Assembly (NCBI RefSeq): GCF_001399755.1
Contig: NZ_LJCP01000009.1
Location: forward strand, 1-64,000
DNA: 64,000 bases
Direction of reading: 5' to 3'
Source: Thiohalorhabdus denitrificans
GTDB lineage: Bacteria > Pseudomonadota > Gammaproteobacteria > Thiohalorhabdales > Thiohalorhabdaceae
Shown in pieces: positions 29,877 through 39,459 of the stretch; the stretch's first letter is position 1, and each line of letters opens with the position of its first letter. The position numbers and the translations under genes are program-made. The notes under the pieces are model-generated. The model did not search any database. It was not told the DNA's origin and was given only the letters and a program-made list of their open reading frames with translations.

Positions 29877-31848
29877 ATGCGCCTACGTTCCAAGCTCCTG
29901 TTGCTGCTGGCCGCCGCCACCCTGCCGCCGCTTCTGGCCATCCTCCTGTACGCGGGGCATCTGAGCTCGCGGACGCTGGAGGAGCAGGTGAACCGGGATA
30001 TGCACCTGCTCCTCCAGCGGGGTGTGGCGGAGGTGGAGACCCTGCTCGACAACCAGAAGGCCACCGCCCGGGCCCTCGCCGAGGTGCCAGTGCTGCGGCG
30101 GTACCTGGACGCGGTGACGGACGGAGGGGACCCCGGCGAGGCCCGCTCCCGCCTGGAGGAGTACCTGCTCGCCTTCCAAGAGGCCAAGCCGACGGTCCAG
30201 GGGGTACGGTTCCTTGATCTCCGGGGCAACTCCCTGGTGAAGGTGAAGCAGGGCCGGATCGTTCCCCCGGAAGGAACCGGGGATCACGGCCTGCCCGTGG
30301 TGGCCAACCACGCCCACAAGAAGTTCTTTCGCGACGCCCGGTTCCTGGAGTCGGACGAGGTGGGGGTCTCCAACTTCGAGCTGGGAAGCGTGAGTCCGGA
30401 CAAGGACTTCTGTCCCGCCATGATCCGCTTCACCACCCCGCTGGAGCACGGGGGCGAGCGTCTCGGGTACCTGGTGGTCAATGTCTGGGGGCGCCACCTG
30501 GACCGCATGCTCGGTGGCATGATCGCCGAGCGCAAGGGGCACGCCTTCCTGGCCGAATACAACCGCATCGATTTGCCGCGGGACGGGGTCTTCCTCTACC
30601 ACCCCGACGAATCCAAGCGCTTCGCCAACCAGCGGCGCCATTCCGCCTACCTGGGCGGCGTCCTGGGCGAGCCGGCCGCCCGACGGATCCACACCCAGGA
30701 GCAGGGCATGGTCGTCCTGCCGGACAGCGGCGACCGGATCTATTTCAACCGCTTCAGCCCCTATGGGGACCCCACCCGGGCCTGGGTTCTGGGGATCCGG
30801 GCGGATACGGCCGCCCTCCTGAGCCCCACCCGGGAACTGCTCTTCTCCATCGCCGCGGTGGGCCTGGTGGCTCTTTTGGCCATTCTGGGCCTGTCCCGGT
30901 GGGCGGCCGCGGGGGTGACCACCCCCATCCACCGCTTGGCCAGCAAGGTGCGCCGTCTGGCCGAAGGGGACCTGTCCGTGCGCTGTCGCACCGACCGGTC
31001 CGACGAGGTGGGCAGCCTGGCCCGCACCTTCGACTATCTCGCCGATAGCCTGGAGCAGGCGCAGCGGGAGCGGGACCAGGCGGAGGAACAGGCCTGCCGG
31101 GCCGCCAAGCTGGCCTCGGTAGGCGAGCTGGCCGGGGGCCTTGCCCACGAGATCAACAACCCCCTGAACAATATCCGCTCCCTGGCCACCCTTATCGAGC
31201 GGGACCTGCCCGCGGACGTCCCCGAACGGGCGGCCCGGGACCTGCGCACCCTGCGCCAGGAGTGCGAGCAGTGCAGCCGCATCATCCAGGGCCTGCTCAA
31301 TTTCGGCCGGCAGATGGACCCGGAGCTGCGCGAGGTGGACCTGCCGACCCTGGTGGAGCAGAGCCTCCAGCTCCTCGAGCGCAAGGCCCGGGCCGGAGGG
31401 GTGGGCCTGGTGTACGAGCAGCCATCCGGCCCCGTTCCCCCCGTCCTGGGCGATCCCCACCAGCTACAGCAGGTCCTCGTGAATGTCCTGCTCAATGCCA
31501 TCCAGGCCAGCCCCGACCAGTCGGCCGTGCGGGTCACAATGGCCTGTGCCGGGGAAGGGGTGGAGGTGCGCGTTGCCGACGAGGGGGCCGGCATCCCCCG
31601 GGAGACCCTGGACCGGATCTTCGATCCCTTCTTCTCCACCAAGCCGGAGGGCCAGGGGTCTGGACTGGGGCTGTCGGTGAGCTACGGGATCGTGGCCCGG
31701 CACGGCGGCGAGATCCACGTGGACAGCCTCCCCGGGGCGGGTACCACCGTGCGTCTCTCCCTGCCCACGGAGGCCGGCGGGGGTGCCGGGGAACCGGTCG
31801 CAGAGGGGCGGGCCGCGGACGAGACTCGGACCGAGGAGGGGGTGAACA

Positions 31849-31859
<11 letters not shown>
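29877..31859 (+). CDS. Membrane sensor histidine kinase (Cache-HAMP-HisKA-HATPase)
   Basis: 660 residues from ATG 29877, chosen for GGAGGAGGAAT. Topology: transmembrane helix at about 7-26 (LLLLAAATLPPLLAILLYAG), a periplasmic sensor of about 290 residues (Cache-like, with VRFLDLRGNSLVKVK and KDFCPAMIRFTTPL), a second transmembrane helix near 325-345, HAMP (TTPIHRLASKVRRLAEGDLSVRC), HisKA with H424 in AGGLAHEINNPLNNI, then HATPase (NVLLNAIQAS, VADEGAGIP, FSTKPEGQGSGLGLSVSYGIV). It overlaps the regulator gene by 11 bases, so the two form one pair. The ligand probably binds in the periplasm, next to the compartment where the controlled proteins act. Confidence 0.93.
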
Positions 31860-33258
<1,399 letters not shown>

Positions 33259-33272
33259 CGCGGGCGCGAGCG

Positions 33273-33308
33273 TTGCATCTTGCAGGGAAGGGCCGGTTGC
33301 ATCTTGCA
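33273..33308 (+). repeat. Two copies of TTGCATCTTGCA, probable activator sites
   Basis: TTGCATCTTGCA occurs exactly twice, at 33273-33284 and 33297-33308, 24 bases centre to centre. Each is a short palindrome (TTGCA-TCT-TGCA). A further half site TTTTGCA follows near 33322-33328. They lie 77-112 bases before the sigma-54 promoter, the normal distance for enhancer sites of NtrC-type regulators. Confidence 0.65.
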
Positions 33309-33326
33309 ACCGGCCTTTTCATTTTG
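33291..33326 (+). terminator. Intrinsic terminator after the sigma-54 regulator
   Basis: GGCCGGTTGCA pairs perfectly with TGCAACCGGCC (11 bp, TCT loop), followed by TTTTCATTTT. The stem contains the second TTGCATCTTGCA copy, so the terminator and a presumed regulator site share the same bases. Confidence 0.85.
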
Positions 33327-33383
33327 CACCGCCGCCCCTGCGGGAACGGGGATAAAGTCCTAATTTTTCAAAACAAATAATCA

Positions 33384-33399
33384 TGGCATCGCGCTTGCT
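33384..33399 (+). promoter_or_regulatory. Sigma-54 (-24/-12) promoter
   Basis: TGGCATCGCGCTTGCT has GG at 33385-33386 and GC at 33397-33398 with exactly 10 bases between, matching TGGCAC-N5-TTGC at nearly every key base. The start of transcription would fall near 33410, about 30 bases before the first DsrE-like gene. Confidence 0.75.
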
Positions 33400-33439
33400 C
33401 AAGGAGGGGCAGGAAACACCTGCAATGGAGGAGCGCGAA

Positions 33440-33895
33440 ATGTTCAGGATCCTGCCGAGTACGCTCGGCGTCCTCTGCCTGGGCCTCTTCTTGGCCGCCT
33501 CGGCGCAGGCCGAGGGCTATCCCTATGAGAAGGGCCAGAAGGCCGTCTATCAGGTCAACGAGATCGATCGGGCCGGTGCCGCCCTGCGCAACATCGCCAA
33601 CCATATCAACGCCACCGGGAGTCCCATGGAGGGCCGCGCGGACATTGCGGTGGTCACCCATTCCAGCGGTGTATTCATGCTCCTGGAAGGGGCCACCGAC
33701 CGGAAGGGCCGCGCCTATGAGCCCCGTATCCAGGACCTCATGAGCAAGGGCGTGGAGTTCCTGCAGTGCCAGAACACCCTCGACGGCCACGGCCTGAAGA
33801 AGAGCGACCTGGTGGACGGGGTGAAGATCGTCCCATCCGGGGTCGCGGAGCTGGCCAAGAAGCAGGCCAACGGCTACGCCTTCATCAAGCCCTGA
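33440..33895 (+). CDS. Periplasmic DsrE-family protein, first copy
   Basis: 151 residues from ATG 33440, fixed by GGAGGAG. A signal peptide (VLCLGLFLAASAQA) directs it to the periplasm. The mature domain is of the DsrE/F sulfur-relay fold: KAVYQVNEIDRAGAALRNIANHINATG, DIAVVTHSSGVFMLLEG, then the conserved cysteine in GVEFLQCQNTLDG and VPSGVAELAKKQANGYAFIKP. Exported relatives are frequent in sulfur-oxidising bacteria; cytoplasmic DsrE proteins carry sulfur on a cysteine. First gene after the sigma-54 promoter. Confidence 0.85.
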   Translation: MFRILPSTLGVLCLGLFLAASAQAEGYPYEKGQKAVYQVNEIDRAGAALRNIANHINATGSPMEGRADIAVVTHSSGVFMLLEGATDRKGRAYEPRIQDLMSKGVEFLQCQNTLDGHGLKKSDLVDGVKIVPSGVAELAKKQANGYAFIKP

Positions 33896-33951: not shown

Positions 33952-34389
33952 ATGAAGGACATGATCAAGCGGCACGCGCCCAAGGGGCTGTTGGTCGTCC
34001 TCGCCCTACTGGTGGGGCCGGTCCAGGCCCAGCCGGAAAGCCTGGCGGACCATCAGGTGGTGGTGCAGATCTCCGAGGGCGATGCCTTCAAGCAGAAGAT
34101 CGTGCTGAACAACGTCTCCAATCTGCTCAAGCACTACGGTCCCGACCTTGTGGATATCGAGGTGGTGGCCTACGGGCCGGGCCTGCGCCTGCTGTTCGAG
34201 GACAACGCCAACCAGGGCCGCATCGACAACCTCATGAAGCAGGGCGTGGAGTTCTCCGCCTGCTCCAACACCATGGCCAATATGGGCAAGGACCTGGACG
34301 ACCTGATCGCGGGCACGGAAAAGGTCGCCGGCGGGGTGGTGTACCTCATGGAGCGCCAGGAGGAGGGCTGGTCCTACCTGCGTCCGTGA
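33952..34389 (+). CDS. Periplasmic DsrE-family protein, second copy
   Basis: 145 residues from ATG 33952 with CGGAGGAAGC upstream. Signal peptide LLVVLALLVGPVQA. The mature part shares the fold and the cysteine site with the first copy: VVVQISEGDAFKQKIVLNNVSNLLKHYG, VEVVAYGPGLRLLFED, GVEFSACSNTMANMG and a closing VVYLMERQEEGWSYLRP. Overall identity to the first copy is low, so the pair is an old duplication or a heterodimer. A 10-bp hairpin (GGTGCGCCCC / GGGGTGCACC) lies in the 56-base gap between the two genes. Confidence 0.83.
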   Translation: MKDMIKRHAPKGLLVVLALLVGPVQAQPESLADHQVVVQISEGDAFKQKIVLNNVSNLLKHYGPDLVDIEVVAYGPGLRLLFEDNANQGRIDNLMKQGVEFSACSNTMANMGKDLDDLIAGTEKVAGGVVYLMERQEEGWSYLRP

Positions 34390-34440: not shown

Positions 34441-35856
34441 ATGACCAATAGCGTTCGCAATACGGCTGTTGCAGTGGCGCTGGCAGCGGGGGTCGGCGGG
34501 GCCACCAGCGCGCAGGCCTCAAACTGGATCCTGCTGCAGGGCACCGAGCCCTTCGGCAAGGCGCACACCCTGCAGGCCTGGGGGTTCCTGCAGCCGACGT
34601 TCCGGTCCATCGAGGATGAAGACCTGGATGTCCCCGGCACTCCCTTCGACGGTGACCGGGCGGTATTCAACACCCTGGGTCCTGACCGGCAATCGGCGCA
34701 GTCCTTCAGCCTGTTCCGGGCTCGGCTGGGGGCGCGGGGGGTACTGCACCCGGTCAACGACAAGATCAATTACTTCTTCCTCGCCGAGTTCGGCGATAAC
34801 GGCATAACCCGGTTGGGGTCCCCCGGAACAGGGAGCGTCAGCCCGCAGCTCACCGACGCCTCTGTGACCTTCCGGCACTACGCCGGCGGCGGCAGCAGCG
34901 ATCCCTGGAAGCCCGGGGTCAGCCTGCGCTTCGGCCAGTTCAAGATGCCCCTGGCCGACGAGGGCAGCCGCGGCATCATGTCCTTCGATTACATCAACTT
35001 CTCCGAGGTCACCCGGCAGCAGGTGCTGGAGCGCTTCATCCGGAACAACAACGAGGGCATCGACGGCTCCATCTCCGCCTTCCGCGACATCGGCGTGCAG
35101 CTGTTTGACGAGATCAAGGTGACCGACAAGTGGGAGGCCACCTGGGCGGCGGCCGTGGGCAACGGCAACGGCATCAATCGCCTGGACAACGACGAGAACC
35201 TGGATGTCTACCTGCGCGCTCAGACCGCCTACGTCTTCGATGGCGTCAAGCGCGGCGGGCCCCGGCGGGAGGACCTCAAGCTCTTCGCCTGGAGCCAGCA
35301 GGGCAAGCGGCAGTTCGATGACGGCGGCGGGGTGGACGAATACGACCGCAAACGCCATGGGGTGGGCTTCCATTTCTACAAGCAGCCCTACCGCCTAAGC
35401 GGCGAGTACATCTGGGGCAGCGGCATGGTGTTCGACGGGGCTACCCGTACGGATAGCGACGGAAATCCGGTCCCTGGTCCGGGCATCAGCGACCCCAACT
35501 CCAACTTCGGCTATCTCCCGCAGATCGCCCCGGACGAGGACAATGAGTTCGACGGCTGGTACGTGGAGGGGGCCTACTTCCCCATCCCCAACAAGTTCGG
35601 TATCCAGGCCCGTTTCGACCGGCTGAACCGGATGACCAACAATGACGCCCGGCACCGGCAGTTCGATACCTGGACCATCGGTCTGCAGTACTGGAACCAC
35701 CCGGTGAAGGGCCAGTGGCAGCTCAACTACCGCATCCGCGATCTGGAGGCCCCGGACCTGCCCGGAGGCCACAACGCCAATAAGGTTGGCGAGTCCATGG
35801 GCAACGAGATCGGTCTGCAGTACTTCTTCCTGTTCAAGAACGTGGCCCTGCGCTAG
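34441..35856 (+). CDS. Outer-membrane beta-barrel (porin-like) protein, first copy
   Basis: 471 residues from ATG 34441 (GGGAAGGAAACGC upstream). Signal peptide AVAVALAAGVGGATSAQA. The mature chain is rich in alternating aromatic beta strands typical of a porin: RLSGEYIWGSGMVFDG, FDGWYVEGAYFPIPNKFGIQARFDRLNRM, WTIGLQYWNHPVKGQWQLNYRIRDL and a final strand IGLQYFFLFKNVALR. It ends in Arg, not the usual Phe. OprO/OprP-like architecture is possible; the substrate is unknown. Third gene of the presumed sigma-54 operon, ended by a terminator. Confidence 0.78.
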   Translation: MTNSVRNTAVAVALAAGVGGATSAQASNWILLQGTEPFGKAHTLQAWGFLQPTFRSIEDEDLDVPGTPFDGDRAVFNTLGPDRQSAQSFSLFRARLGARGVLHPVNDKINYFFLAEFGDNGITRLGSPGTGSVSPQLTDASVTFRHYAGGGSSDPWKPGVSLRFGQFKMPLADEGSRGIMSFDYINFSEVTRQQVLERFIRNNNEGIDGSISAFRDIGVQLFDEIKVTDKWEATWAAAVGNGNGINRLDNDENLDVYLRAQTAYVFDGVKRGGPRREDLKLFAWSQQGKRQFDDGGGVDEYDRKRHGVGFHFYKQPYRLSGEYIWGSGMVFDGATRTDSDGNPVPGPGISDPNSNFGYLPQIAPDEDNEFDGWYVEGAYFPIPNKFGIQARFDRLNRMTNNDARHRQFDTWTIGLQYWNHPVKGQWQLNYRIRDLEAPDLPGGHNANKVGESMGNEIGLQYFFLFKNVALR

Positions 35857-35882: not shown

Positions 35883-35909
35883 GGCGGCCCCTTCGGGGCC
35901 GCCTTTTTT
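35883..35909 (+). terminator. Intrinsic terminator after the first porin-like gene
   Basis: GGCGGCCCC pairs perfectly with GGGGCCGCC (9 bp, TTC loop) and is followed by six T. It closes the DsrE-DsrE-porin transcript 27 bases after the stop. Confidence 0.9.
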
Positions 35910-36301: not shown

Positions 36302-37762
36302 ATGGGCATGTCCATCTCCCGCGCGCTCGCGGCCTCCGTCCTCGGGGCCGGGGCGCTGGGTCTTTCCGCCCCCGCCGGGGCGGCCAACTGGCTGGTGCTC
36401 ACCAGCTCCGAGCCGGCGGAGGACCCCGCCGGCCTGCGGCTGTTCGGCTTCATGCAGCCCACCTATCGGTACATCGACGACGGTGACAAGCCGGATCTGG
36501 CCGGCACCCTTCTGGAAGGGGCGGCCCCCGATGGCAACCGCCCCATTTTCAACACCCTGTCCCCCGACCGCTCCAGCAACCAGGGCTTCAACCTGTTCCG
36601 TGCGCGGGTCGGCGCCCGGGGCGCGCTGCACGCCGTGGACGACGACATCCACTACTTTTTCCTGACGGAGTGGGGGAACAACGGCATCACCCGGCTGGCC
36701 GATCCCGGCAACGACAGCGCCAGCCCCCAGCTTACCGATGCCTCGGTGACGCTGCGTCACTTTGCTGGCGGCGGCAGCGACGACATCTGGGAGCCGGGCG
36801 TCAGCCTGCGGTTCGGGCAGTTCCAGTGGCCGGTGGCTGACGAGGCGCTGCGCGGCATCATGGCCTTCGACTACATCAACTTCTCCGAGGTGACCCGGCA
36901 GCAGGTCAACGAGCGGTTCGTGCGGGCCAACCAAAGTATTGACGGAACCAAGGATCTGACCGGTTTCGACGGCTCCATCAGCTCCTACCGCGATATCGGC
37001 GCCATGGCCTTCGACGAGATGAAGGTTGCCGACCACTGGGAGGCCACCTGGGCCGCCGGCGTGGGCAACGGCAACGGCATCAACCGCACCGACAACGACG
37101 ACAACATGGATGTCTATCTGCGGGCCCAGACCGCGTATGTGTTCGACGGCGTGAAGCGCGGCGGTCCCCGGCGGGAGGACCTCAAGCTGTTCGCCTGGGC
37201 GCAGATGGGCGAGCGGCAGTTCGACGCCGACGGCAACGGGGTCTTCGATGCGGACGAGACCTACGACCGCAACCGCTACGGCGCCGGCTTCCACTTCTAC
37301 CGCCAGCCCTACCGCCTGAGCGGCGAGTACATCTGGGGCAACGGCATGGTCTACAACGGCACCACCCCGCCGGTGAGCGATCCGGGGACCGGGTTCCAGG
37401 ACATCGGCGATGTGCAGCCGCAGATGGCCCCGGGGGAGGACAACGAGTTCTACGGCTGGTACCTGGAGGGGGCCTATTTCCCCATCCCCAACAAGCTGGC
37501 GGTGCAGGCCCGCTACGACTACCTAGACCGCTTGAGCAGCACGGGTGGAGGATACACCTCGGCCGACGAGCGGGAGTTCGAGACCCTCACCCTGGGTCTG
37601 CAGTACTGGAACCACCCGGTGAAGAGTCAGTGGCAGCTCAACTACCGCATCCGCAGTCTGGAGGCCCCGCACAAGCCGGTGGCGGACAAGGTGGGCGCGG
37701 CCATGGGCAACGAGATCGGCCTGCAGTACTTCCTGCTGTTCAACAGCACGCCCCTGCGCTAA
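36302..37762 (+). CDS. Outer-membrane beta-barrel (porin-like) protein, second copy
   Basis: 486 residues, start ATG 36302 behind AGAGGGGAACC (ATG 36308 also possible). Signal peptide ASVLGAGALGLSAPAGA. Clearly a paralogue of the first copy along the whole length: shared FRARVGARGALHAV, RFGQFQWPVADEALRGIMAFDYINFSEVTRQQV, VFDGVKRGGPRREDLKLFAW, YRLSGEYIWGNGMVYNG and WNHPVKSQWQLNYRIRSLEAP. Differences are concentrated in putative loops (the VFDADETYDRN loop is a Ca-binding-like DxDxNxD insert, DADGNGVFDADE). Substrate unknown; tandem copies suggest a heteromer or two substrates. Confidence 0.78.
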   Translation: MGMSISRALAASVLGAGALGLSAPAGAANWLVLTSSEPAEDPAGLRLFGFMQPTYRYIDDGDKPDLAGTLLEGAAPDGNRPIFNTLSPDRSSNQGFNLFRARVGARGALHAVDDDIHYFFLTEWGNNGITRLADPGNDSASPQLTDASVTLRHFAGGGSDDIWEPGVSLRFGQFQWPVADEALRGIMAFDYINFSEVTRQQVNERFVRANQSIDGTKDLTGFDGSISSYRDIGAMAFDEMKVADHWEATWAAGVGNGNGINRTDNDDNMDVYLRAQTAYVFDGVKRGGPRREDLKLFAWAQMGERQFDADGNGVFDADETYDRNRYGAGFHFYRQPYRLSGEYIWGNGMVYNGTTPPVSDPGTGFQDIGDVQPQMAPGEDNEFYGWYLEGAYFPIPNKLAVQARYDYLDRLSSTGGGYTSADEREFETLTLGLQYWNHPVKSQWQLNYRIRSLEAPHKPVADKVGAAMGNEIGLQYFLLFNSTPLR

Positions 37763-37915: not shown

Positions 37916-38974
37916 GTGAACCTACGGATAACCATTTCGGCCCTGTCGCTCGGCCTGTTGGCCGCATGGGGCGGCCTTTGGGCGGCGCCTAGCGCGGCGG
38001 AGGAGCCCGGGGGCGAGGAGCTGTTCAAGGAGCACTGCGCCACCTGCCACGGCCCCGATGGTGGGGGCGGCATCGGTCTGCCCCTGCACCTGGAGGACTT
38101 CCTGCGCATCGCCGACCGGGAGTACCTCATGGAGACCATGCGCCACGGCCGGCCCGGCCGGGTAATGCCCGGCTTCGAGCACATCCTGAGCAAGGAGGAA
38201 CGGGGGCGCATCGCGGACTTCATCCAGGGATGGCGGGAGGGCCCGCAGGCCGAGCTTCCCGAGGTGGGCGAAGGGGATCCCGCGCGCGGCGCGGATCTGT
38301 TCGCGCGGCACTGCGCCGACTGCCACGGTCCCCAGGGCCGGGGCGGCACCCAGCCCCGGGAGGCCCCCGGCCACATCACGGGCGAGGAGCAGGTGGTTCC
38401 CCCGGCGCTGAACAACTCCGGCTTCCTGGCGGCGGCCAGCGACCGTTTCATCAAGGCCACCATGCTGCGCGGCCGGGAGGGCACCCCCATGACCCCCTTC
38501 GGCGAGGCGGAGGAGCTCTCAGATCAGCAGATGGACGATCTGGTGGCCTTCATCCGCGGCTGGGGGGAGGGCGTGGACCCGCTCGCCGAGCCCGTGATCG
38601 AGGTGCGCTCGGACATGCCCATGGACGAGCTCATCCCCATGCTCAAGATGTCCATCAACAGCCACAACTTCGTCTTCATCCGGCAGCAGACCCTCTACGA
38701 GGACCTGCCGCCGGAGGGGGAGGAGGCCGAGAGCCCGGTCCATATCCTGCATTTCTGCAGCTTCGGGCTGCTCGACAAGGCGCTGGAGGTGGACGAGCGG
38801 GTGGGGACCTTCCTGCCCTGCCAGATCACCGTCTACCGGGAGGGCGGCCAGACGGTGATGAGCGCCATCAATCCCAAGGCGCTGTCCCCGCTATTCCACA
38901 AACCGGAGCTGGAGCTGTTCTGCTCGCTGGTGAGCGAGCAGTACCTAAAGATCATGCAGGAGGCGAGCTTCTGA
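37916..38974 (+). CDS. Dihaem cytochrome c fused to a DUF302 domain
   Basis: 352 residues from GTG 37916 (AGAGGGGGCTACC upstream). Signal peptide (SLGLLAAWGGLWAAPSAA), so periplasmic. Two class I cytochrome c domains with CATCH at 41-45 and CADCH at 133-137; candidate distal methionines lie in GRPGRVMPGF and EGTPMTPFGE. From about residue 220 a DUF302 domain follows (DELIPMLKMSINSHNFVFIRQQTL ... HFCSFGLLDKALEVDERVGTFLPCQITVYREGG). DUF302 has unknown chemistry and is often seen with sulfur and redox proteins; the fusion implies electron transfer to or from its ligand. Overlaps the next gene by one base (TGATG). Confidence 0.88.
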   Translation: MNLRITISALSLGLLAAWGGLWAAPSAAEEPGGEELFKEHCATCHGPDGGGGIGLPLHLEDFLRIADREYLMETMRHGRPGRVMPGFEHILSKEERGRIADFIQGWREGPQAELPEVGEGDPARGADLFARHCADCHGPQGRGGTQPREAPGHITGEEQVVPPALNNSGFLAAASDRFIKATMLRGREGTPMTPFGEAEELSDQQMDDLVAFIRGWGEGVDPLAEPVIEVRSDMPMDELIPMLKMSINSHNFVFIRQQTLYEDLPPEGEEAESPVHILHFCSFGLLDKALEVDERVGTFLPCQITVYREGGQTVMSAINPKALSPLFHKPELELFCSLVSEQYLKIMQEASF

Positions 38975-39459
38975 TGGTGACAAGGATTCTCATAGCCCTG
39001 GCCCTGCTGGTGTCCGCCCCCCTGGCGGGGGCCGCCCAGGGCAACCCGAACTTCTTCGAGCGGGAGATCTCCGGTGCCTCCGTGGAGCTGGTGCTCAGCC
39101 AGCTGCAGAACGCCATCGATGAAGCGGGCTTCACCTTCATGCGGGTGCAGAATGTGGACAAGGGCCTGGCGGCCAAGGGTTTCGACCGCCCGCCTTACAA
39201 GATCGTCTTCTTCGGCGACCGGGAGGCTTTCGAGAAGGCCCGGGAGATCGATCCCCGGGTCACGCCCTACCTGCCCTTGAAGATCACCCTCTACGAGGAC
39301 GAGGCCGGCAATTCGCATCTGTCCGTGGTGGATCCGGCCGTGGTGGGGCGGATGTTCAACCCCGGGCTCCAGGAGCAGTTCCAGGACTGGTCGCGCCGGA
39401 TGCAGCAAATCCTCGACACCACCACGGAGGAGGTGGAAGGGAGCACCTTCTCCCCGTAG
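38974..39459 (+). CDS. Exported stand-alone DUF302 protein
   Basis: 161 residues from ATG 38974, which shares its A with the stop of the cytochrome gene; CAGGAGGCGA precedes it. Signal peptide ILIALALLVSAPLAGA. The DUF302 domain shows VELVLSQLQNAIDEAGFTFMRVQNVD, YKIVFFGDREAFEKAREIDPRVTPYLPLKITLYEDEAGN and VVDPAVVGRMFN. Unlike the fused copy, it lacks the cysteines in the central strand (FC and PC). Its coupling to the fused copy suggests the two work together in the periplasm. Confidence 0.85.
   Translation: MVTRILIALALLVSAPLAGAAQGNPNFFEREISGASVELVLSQLQNAIDEAGFTFMRVQNVDKGLAAKGFDRPPYKIVFFGDREAFEKAREIDPRVTPYLPLKITLYEDEAGNSHLSVVDPAVVGRMFNPGLQEQFQDWSRRMQQILDTTTEEVEGSTFSP

Follow-up and report, generated by a model that had tools for sequence, protein, structure and literature searches.

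What is the function of a repeated inverted motif and a sigma-54-type promoter element in the 181 bases that separate an NtrC-family regulator gene from the first gene of a periplasmic dsrE-porin cluster in Thiohalorhabdus denitrificans? The window that we analysed comprises the first 64,000 nucleotides of contig NZ_LJCP01000009.1 (assembly GCF_001399755.1). The elements found there, and their recurrence in other genomes, point with a probability that we place at about 0.86 to the control region of a self-contained two-component sigma-54 switch driving dsrE1, dsrE2 and a porin gene (Table 1). The kinase would respond to a cue in the periplasm, a reduced sulfur compound being the most likely one, and phosphorylate the regulator encoded by the overlapping gene. 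Dimers of the regulator could then occupy two TTGCA-N3-TGCA(A/G) operators that lie ~85-110 bp upstream, contact sigma-54 RNA polymerase at the -24/-12 element by DNA looping and open the promoter through GAFTGA-dependent ATP hydrolysis, so that dsrE1-dsrE2-porin would be transcribed from ~33410 to the terminator at 35883. Operator 2 would have a second role as RNA: in the kinase-regulator transcript it would be the terminator stem, which would set the regulator operon apart from the target promoter.

Table 1. Features of the kinase-regulator and dsrE-porin locus (positions in the window).
Feature	Position	Strand	Basis or remark
Sensor histidine kinase gene	29877..31859	+	Pfam: Cache-like periplasmic sensor, HAMP, HisKA, HATPase; orthologues adjoin orthologous regulators
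NtrC-family response regulator gene	31849..33258	+	Pfam: receiver, sigma-54 AAA+ with GAFTGA, Fis-type HTH (...NKTTLWRKL...); trees
Operator copy 1 (candidate), TTGCA-TCT-TGCAG, one half-site mismatch	33273..33285	none	Conserved TGCA-N3-TGCA
Operator copy 2 (candidate), TTGCA-TCT-TGCAA, perfect palindrome	33297..33309	none	Conserved TGCA-N3-TGCA
Predicted intrinsic terminator of the kinase-regulator operon, GGCCGGTTGCA-TCT-TGCAACCGGCC then TTTTCATTTT	33291..33325	+	Stem contains operator copy 2; similar in G028 and G173
Predicted sigma-54 -24/-12 promoter element, TGGCATCGCGCTTGCT	33384..33399	+	Relatives have homologous sites in the corresponding place
dsrE1 ribosome site, GGAGGAG	33428-33433		
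dsrE1, first target gene, DsrE-like protein with signal peptide	33440..33895	+	Pfam; orthologues first downstream of the promoter
dsrE2, second DsrE-like protein gene	33952..34389	+	
Outer-membrane porin gene (Porin_O_P)	34441..35856	+	Pfam; conserved dsrE2-porin pair
Strong intrinsic terminator closing the dsrE-dsrE-porin unit	35883..35903	+	Terminator scan

Regulator and control region in the window

The original prediction of an intact NtrC-family regulator with GAFTGA and a Fis-type helix-turn-helix (HTH) was confirmed: Pfam found the receiver, the sigma-54 AAA+ domain and the Fis-type HTH of a group I enhancer-binding protein, and GAFTGA stands at residue 221. The kinase gene does overlap the regulator gene, as had been stated, the two reading frames sharing 11 bases, and rpoN, the sigma-54 gene, was found in this genome. 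The regulator lies under every NCBIfam equivalog cutoff shown and matches no named NtrC-family member that was tested. It resembles NtrC of nitrogen regulation in domain plan and enhancer logic, and the NtrC site is likewise built on TGCA half-sites, but with a half-site spacing that differs from that of the window operator. The protein scored 417 bits against the NtrC cutoff of 559 and was not assigned to NtrC. Gene content (dsrE, soxYZ) suggests the connection of the circuit to sulfur, and we can only guess that the kinase cue may be a thiol or thiosulfate, perceived via a sensor domain with an invariant cysteine (C179).

Two exact copies of a 12-mer, TTGCATCTTGCA, had been reported upstream of the promoter. 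Both are present, at 33273-33284 and 33297-33308, and they are the only exact matches in the 2.87 Mb genome; chance expectation at one mismatch or fewer is 0.11, and two copies occurred in 0 of 100 shuffles. The description of this repeat as a palindrome needs amending: there is a true palindrome, the 13-mer of copy 2, but TTGCATCTTGCA itself is not one and copy 1 carries one mismatch. From the start of each operator copy to the -24/-12 element the distance is 110 and 86 bp, respectively, and the combined pattern of operator and -24/-12 element has a single occurrence in this genome, at the window site. Operator near-matches at C11:229714, C14:18086 and C14:321521 were taken as chance because the combined pattern is absent at them.

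The promoter element was predicted as a near-consensus site with correct spacing. Its GG and GC are indeed 10 bases apart and it scores 14/16 against a mixed consensus, but a consensus search of the window allowing 2 mismatches returned 6 matches against 7.8 expected from shuffled sequence, so that by sequence alone the match is unexceptional. The weight of this site therefore comes from its position and its conservation in relatives, not from its match to the consensus.

The porin gene of the unit is followed by a second, tandem porin gene (36302-37762) that is ~62% identical to it, with the terminator at 35883 between the two; neither an operator nor a clear -24/-12 site was found upstream of the second gene. 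Next to the dsrE-porin unit, 37916-39459 encodes a fusion of DUF302 to a cytochrome c having two haem domains and, after it, a separate DUF302 protein.

Conservation beside homologous regulators

Relatives of the circuit were found via the kinase sensor domain, orthologues of which adjoin an NtrC-type regulator in more than 12 families of the same class. With the same sensor domain we also obtained 53 loci from named genomes; almost all are gammaproteobacterial, and the cultured Thiohalophilus thiocyanatoxydans and a Sulfuriflexus are among them. The system was absent from the two same-genus genomes examined. The regulator is followed by dsrE in nearly all these homologous loci. Absence of the palindrome beside orthologous regulators had been named beforehand as evidence against the prediction. 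We found TGCA-N3-TGCA in 46 of 52 distinct homologous regulator-to-target intergenic regions, which are related by descent, and hence such counts are not independent, although the flanking bases showed little conservation. Each of the other half-site spacings (N0-N2 and N4-N12) was present in only 0-4 of the 52 regions, and when all 256 palindromic tetramers were compared at 11 spacings (0-10), this motif came out on top, the next best reaching 9. Dinucleotide shuffles of the 52 regions contained it in 0.58 regions on average (maximum 3), and other stretches of the same contigs in 65 of 2204 cases.

Downstream of the operator, a strict -24/-12 site was recognized in 36 of the 52 regions at a nearly fixed distance (76-120 bp from the operator start, mostly 97-101). 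The arrangement of operator and promoter is not universal, since 6 of the 52 regions are without the motif and 16 have no strict -24/-12 match. The conserved order regulator-operator-promoter-dsrE agrees with the earlier proposal of the dsrE/porin genes from 33440 as the likely target. When 143 genomes were searched for an operator combined with a promoter, 38 sites came out, compared with 2 for the reversed pattern; apart from the dsrE promoters, at least 7 of the sites lead into soxY.

A candidate operator within a predicted terminator

Missing from the original prediction was a hairpin at 33291-33315 that is followed by TTTTCATTTT and carries operator copy 2 in its stem. The hairpin is G+C-rich, precedes a T-rich tract and lies after the regulator stop codon, as expected of an intrinsic terminator; the stem is a perfect one of 11 bp, with copy 2 as its core, and the folding z is -6.0. 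A simple terminator scan did not list this terminator (33291-33325). On a cautious reading, it may insulate the enhancer and promoter from read-through.

Similar features were seen in the two other loci in which a dsrE2-porin pair follows such a regulator (G028 and G173; n=3 with the window, which alone was noted with dsrE1 first). The second operator of G173 likewise forms the middle of a hairpin, with TTTCTGTTTTTTT after it, and that of G028 is overlapped by a terminator stem; the -12 elements of G028 and G173 are weaker (TTGT and TTGA). Under the same rule, a terminator within 150 bases of the regulator stop was found in 0 of 50 other intergenic regions. The regulators of these three porin-type loci fall outside the dsrE and soxY clades in our trees and were monophyletic in 54% of bootstrap trees. 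The dsrE2-porin pair is itself widespread in the class independently of the regulator (29 of 30 loci; side set L193-L221). Two operators are present in 3 of 3 regulator-linked loci and in 0 of 27 loci without the regulator, 25 of which had no operator within 600 bp upstream; L219 and L220, also without the regulator, have one operator match each and no -24/-12 element at the proper distance downstream. The operator thus accompanies the regulator.

Two operators, the downstream one overlapping a terminator, occur in 3 of 3 porin-type loci and 0 of 50 others, and we tentatively consider a double-duty element, in which the terminator stem of a sigma-54 activator's own operon would incorporate the enhancer operator of that activator. 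The bound, phosphorylated regulator could then activate the target promoter and also influence how far transcription passes its own terminator, with the hairpin shielding the enhancer against read-through. We hold this reading to be rather doubtful as a whole, feedback of the bound regulator on its own terminator being a possible part of it.

The hairpin also raises the question of whether copy 2 is only the terminator of the regulator operon, the repeat being a by-product of the hairpin rather than an operator. That copy 2 forms the core of a perfect G+C-rich stem ahead of TTTTCATTTT speaks for this, and its conservation could reflect terminator function instead of binding. Yet copy 1 lies outside the hairpin, of the 50 homologous regions that lack a terminator of this kind 44 contain the motif, and soxY promoters away from the regulator gene also have it, so we judge this explanation improbable. 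We give slightly less credence to the palindrome being the site of another protein, either a different regulator or a nucleoid protein, with the adjacent regulator having its targets elsewhere. Action on distant genes is possible for NtrC-family regulators, and the operator was assigned by sequence comparison; however, the sole operator-promoter pair in this genome adjoins this regulator, the presence of the motif at dsrE2-porin loci tracks that of the regulator, and the motif is likewise retained next to regulators of sister clades that share the recognition-helix core.

The least probable of the alternatives, in our view, is that the -24/-12 match is fortuitous and that a sigma-70-type promoter, or else read-through from the regulator operon, accounts for transcription of the dsrE operon. 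Such a coincidence would be compatible with a match that lies within chance in the window, but in most relatives the interval between the operator and a homologous -24/-12 site is similar. Moreover, we found no sigma-70-like site on the + strand of the region, and the predicted terminator stands between the regulator and the promoter.

The soxYZ branch and known systems

The original prediction described the circuit as self-contained. This holds for the adjacent kinase, regulator and target in the window, but the circuit is also part of a wider family that elsewhere stands before soxYZ. In many homologous loci soxZ and soxY are convergent to dsrE, and in 24 of 26 such loci the operator is found at the soxY promoter, usually 74-77 bp before a -24/-12 element of its own. 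A sister clade of kinase-regulator pairs lies directly upstream of soxYZ, and many of its members have the same operator. Among the sister-clade soxYZ loci, L077, L078, L168, L169, L176 and L178 have the operator and most of them a -24/-12 element as well. From such comparisons, the window circuit appears to belong, as one branch, to a sigma-54 regulon of sulfur genes in Gammaproteobacteria, a description of which we did not find in the literature searched, which took in few subscription papers. What began as a guess from a single genome is now a testable regulon with one operator and one promoter class. In many sulfur-oxidising Gammaproteobacteria, most of them uncultured but with T. thiocyanatoxydans among the cultured ones, it would tie a family of unnamed kinase-regulator pairs to DsrE proteins of the periplasm, to a porin and to soxYZ. 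In the literature searched, transcription-level sensing of reduced sulfur is little described outside Acidithiobacillus.

In T. denitrificans, soxY belongs to a soxX-soxY cluster on contig C7 (G000:C7:204168-204482, L188), away from the window circuit, and no TGCA-N3-TGCA operator was found in its soxY region. Ahead of this cluster, where Acidithiobacillus has TspS/TspR, is another pair of kinase and NtrC-type regulator (HTH NWNQSRAAVLLGISRKQL). Since soxY is on another contig, behind a different pair and without the operator, the window circuit here probably governs only the dsrE-porin unit.

The operator is not new as a DNA motif because it matches, except for its TCT centre, the consensus TTGCA-W3-TGCAA of LuxO (PMC11443567), the NtrC-type regulator of qrr in Vibrio quorum sensing. 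The earlier proposal of a candidate new operator thus stands as regards conservation beside orthologous regulators, but not as regards the DNA motif. LuxO ChIP-seq sites include ttgcattttgcaa (PMC10328515), and LuxO sites are often paired, ~90-120 bp before the sigma-54 transcript start and ~100 bp before the promoter. The recognition helix of LuxO (S-x-I-Y-R-K-L; PMC11407668) is in part like that of the window regulator (T-T-L-W-R-K-L). Unlike LuxO, the latter has its own adjacent membrane kinase, and its predicted target is a protein-coding dsrE/porin operon instead of a small RNA. Identity with LuxO was ruled out by score (348.8 bits against the NCBIfam LuxO cutoff of 800), even though the form of the operator fits.

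Another sigma-54-dependent two-component system adjoining sulfur-oxidation genes is TspS/TspR of the Acidithiobacillus sox-II cluster (PMC6335251), which resembles the window pair in lying beside sulfur-related genes. The published upstream site of TspR, TGTCCCAAATGGGACA (TGTCCC-N4-GGGACA; PMC6335251), is nonetheless unrelated to the TGCA-N3-TGCA operators, and the window regulator was ruled out as TspR, having neither a TspR-type site nor adjacent sox genes. It is the separate pair at soxXY, with a different HTH and no TGCA-N3-TGCA, that occupies the TspSR position in this genome. A sigma-54 regulator and a histidine kinase at the soxYZ locus are also described for Thiohalomonadales lucinid symbionts, in passages of a report (PMC11237559) that resemble our sister clade but do not include the operator, the promoter or the dsrE/porin branch.

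At many soxY promoters (L066, L077, L084, L087, L092, L114 and others) an extra TGCA half-site was seen ~two helical turns upstream of the core operator, giving a peak at N11/N12 spacing, and this suggests a second, weaker dimer site. With so many soxY promoters having the extra half-site, paired operator sites may be common, a pattern that the two copies in the window fit.
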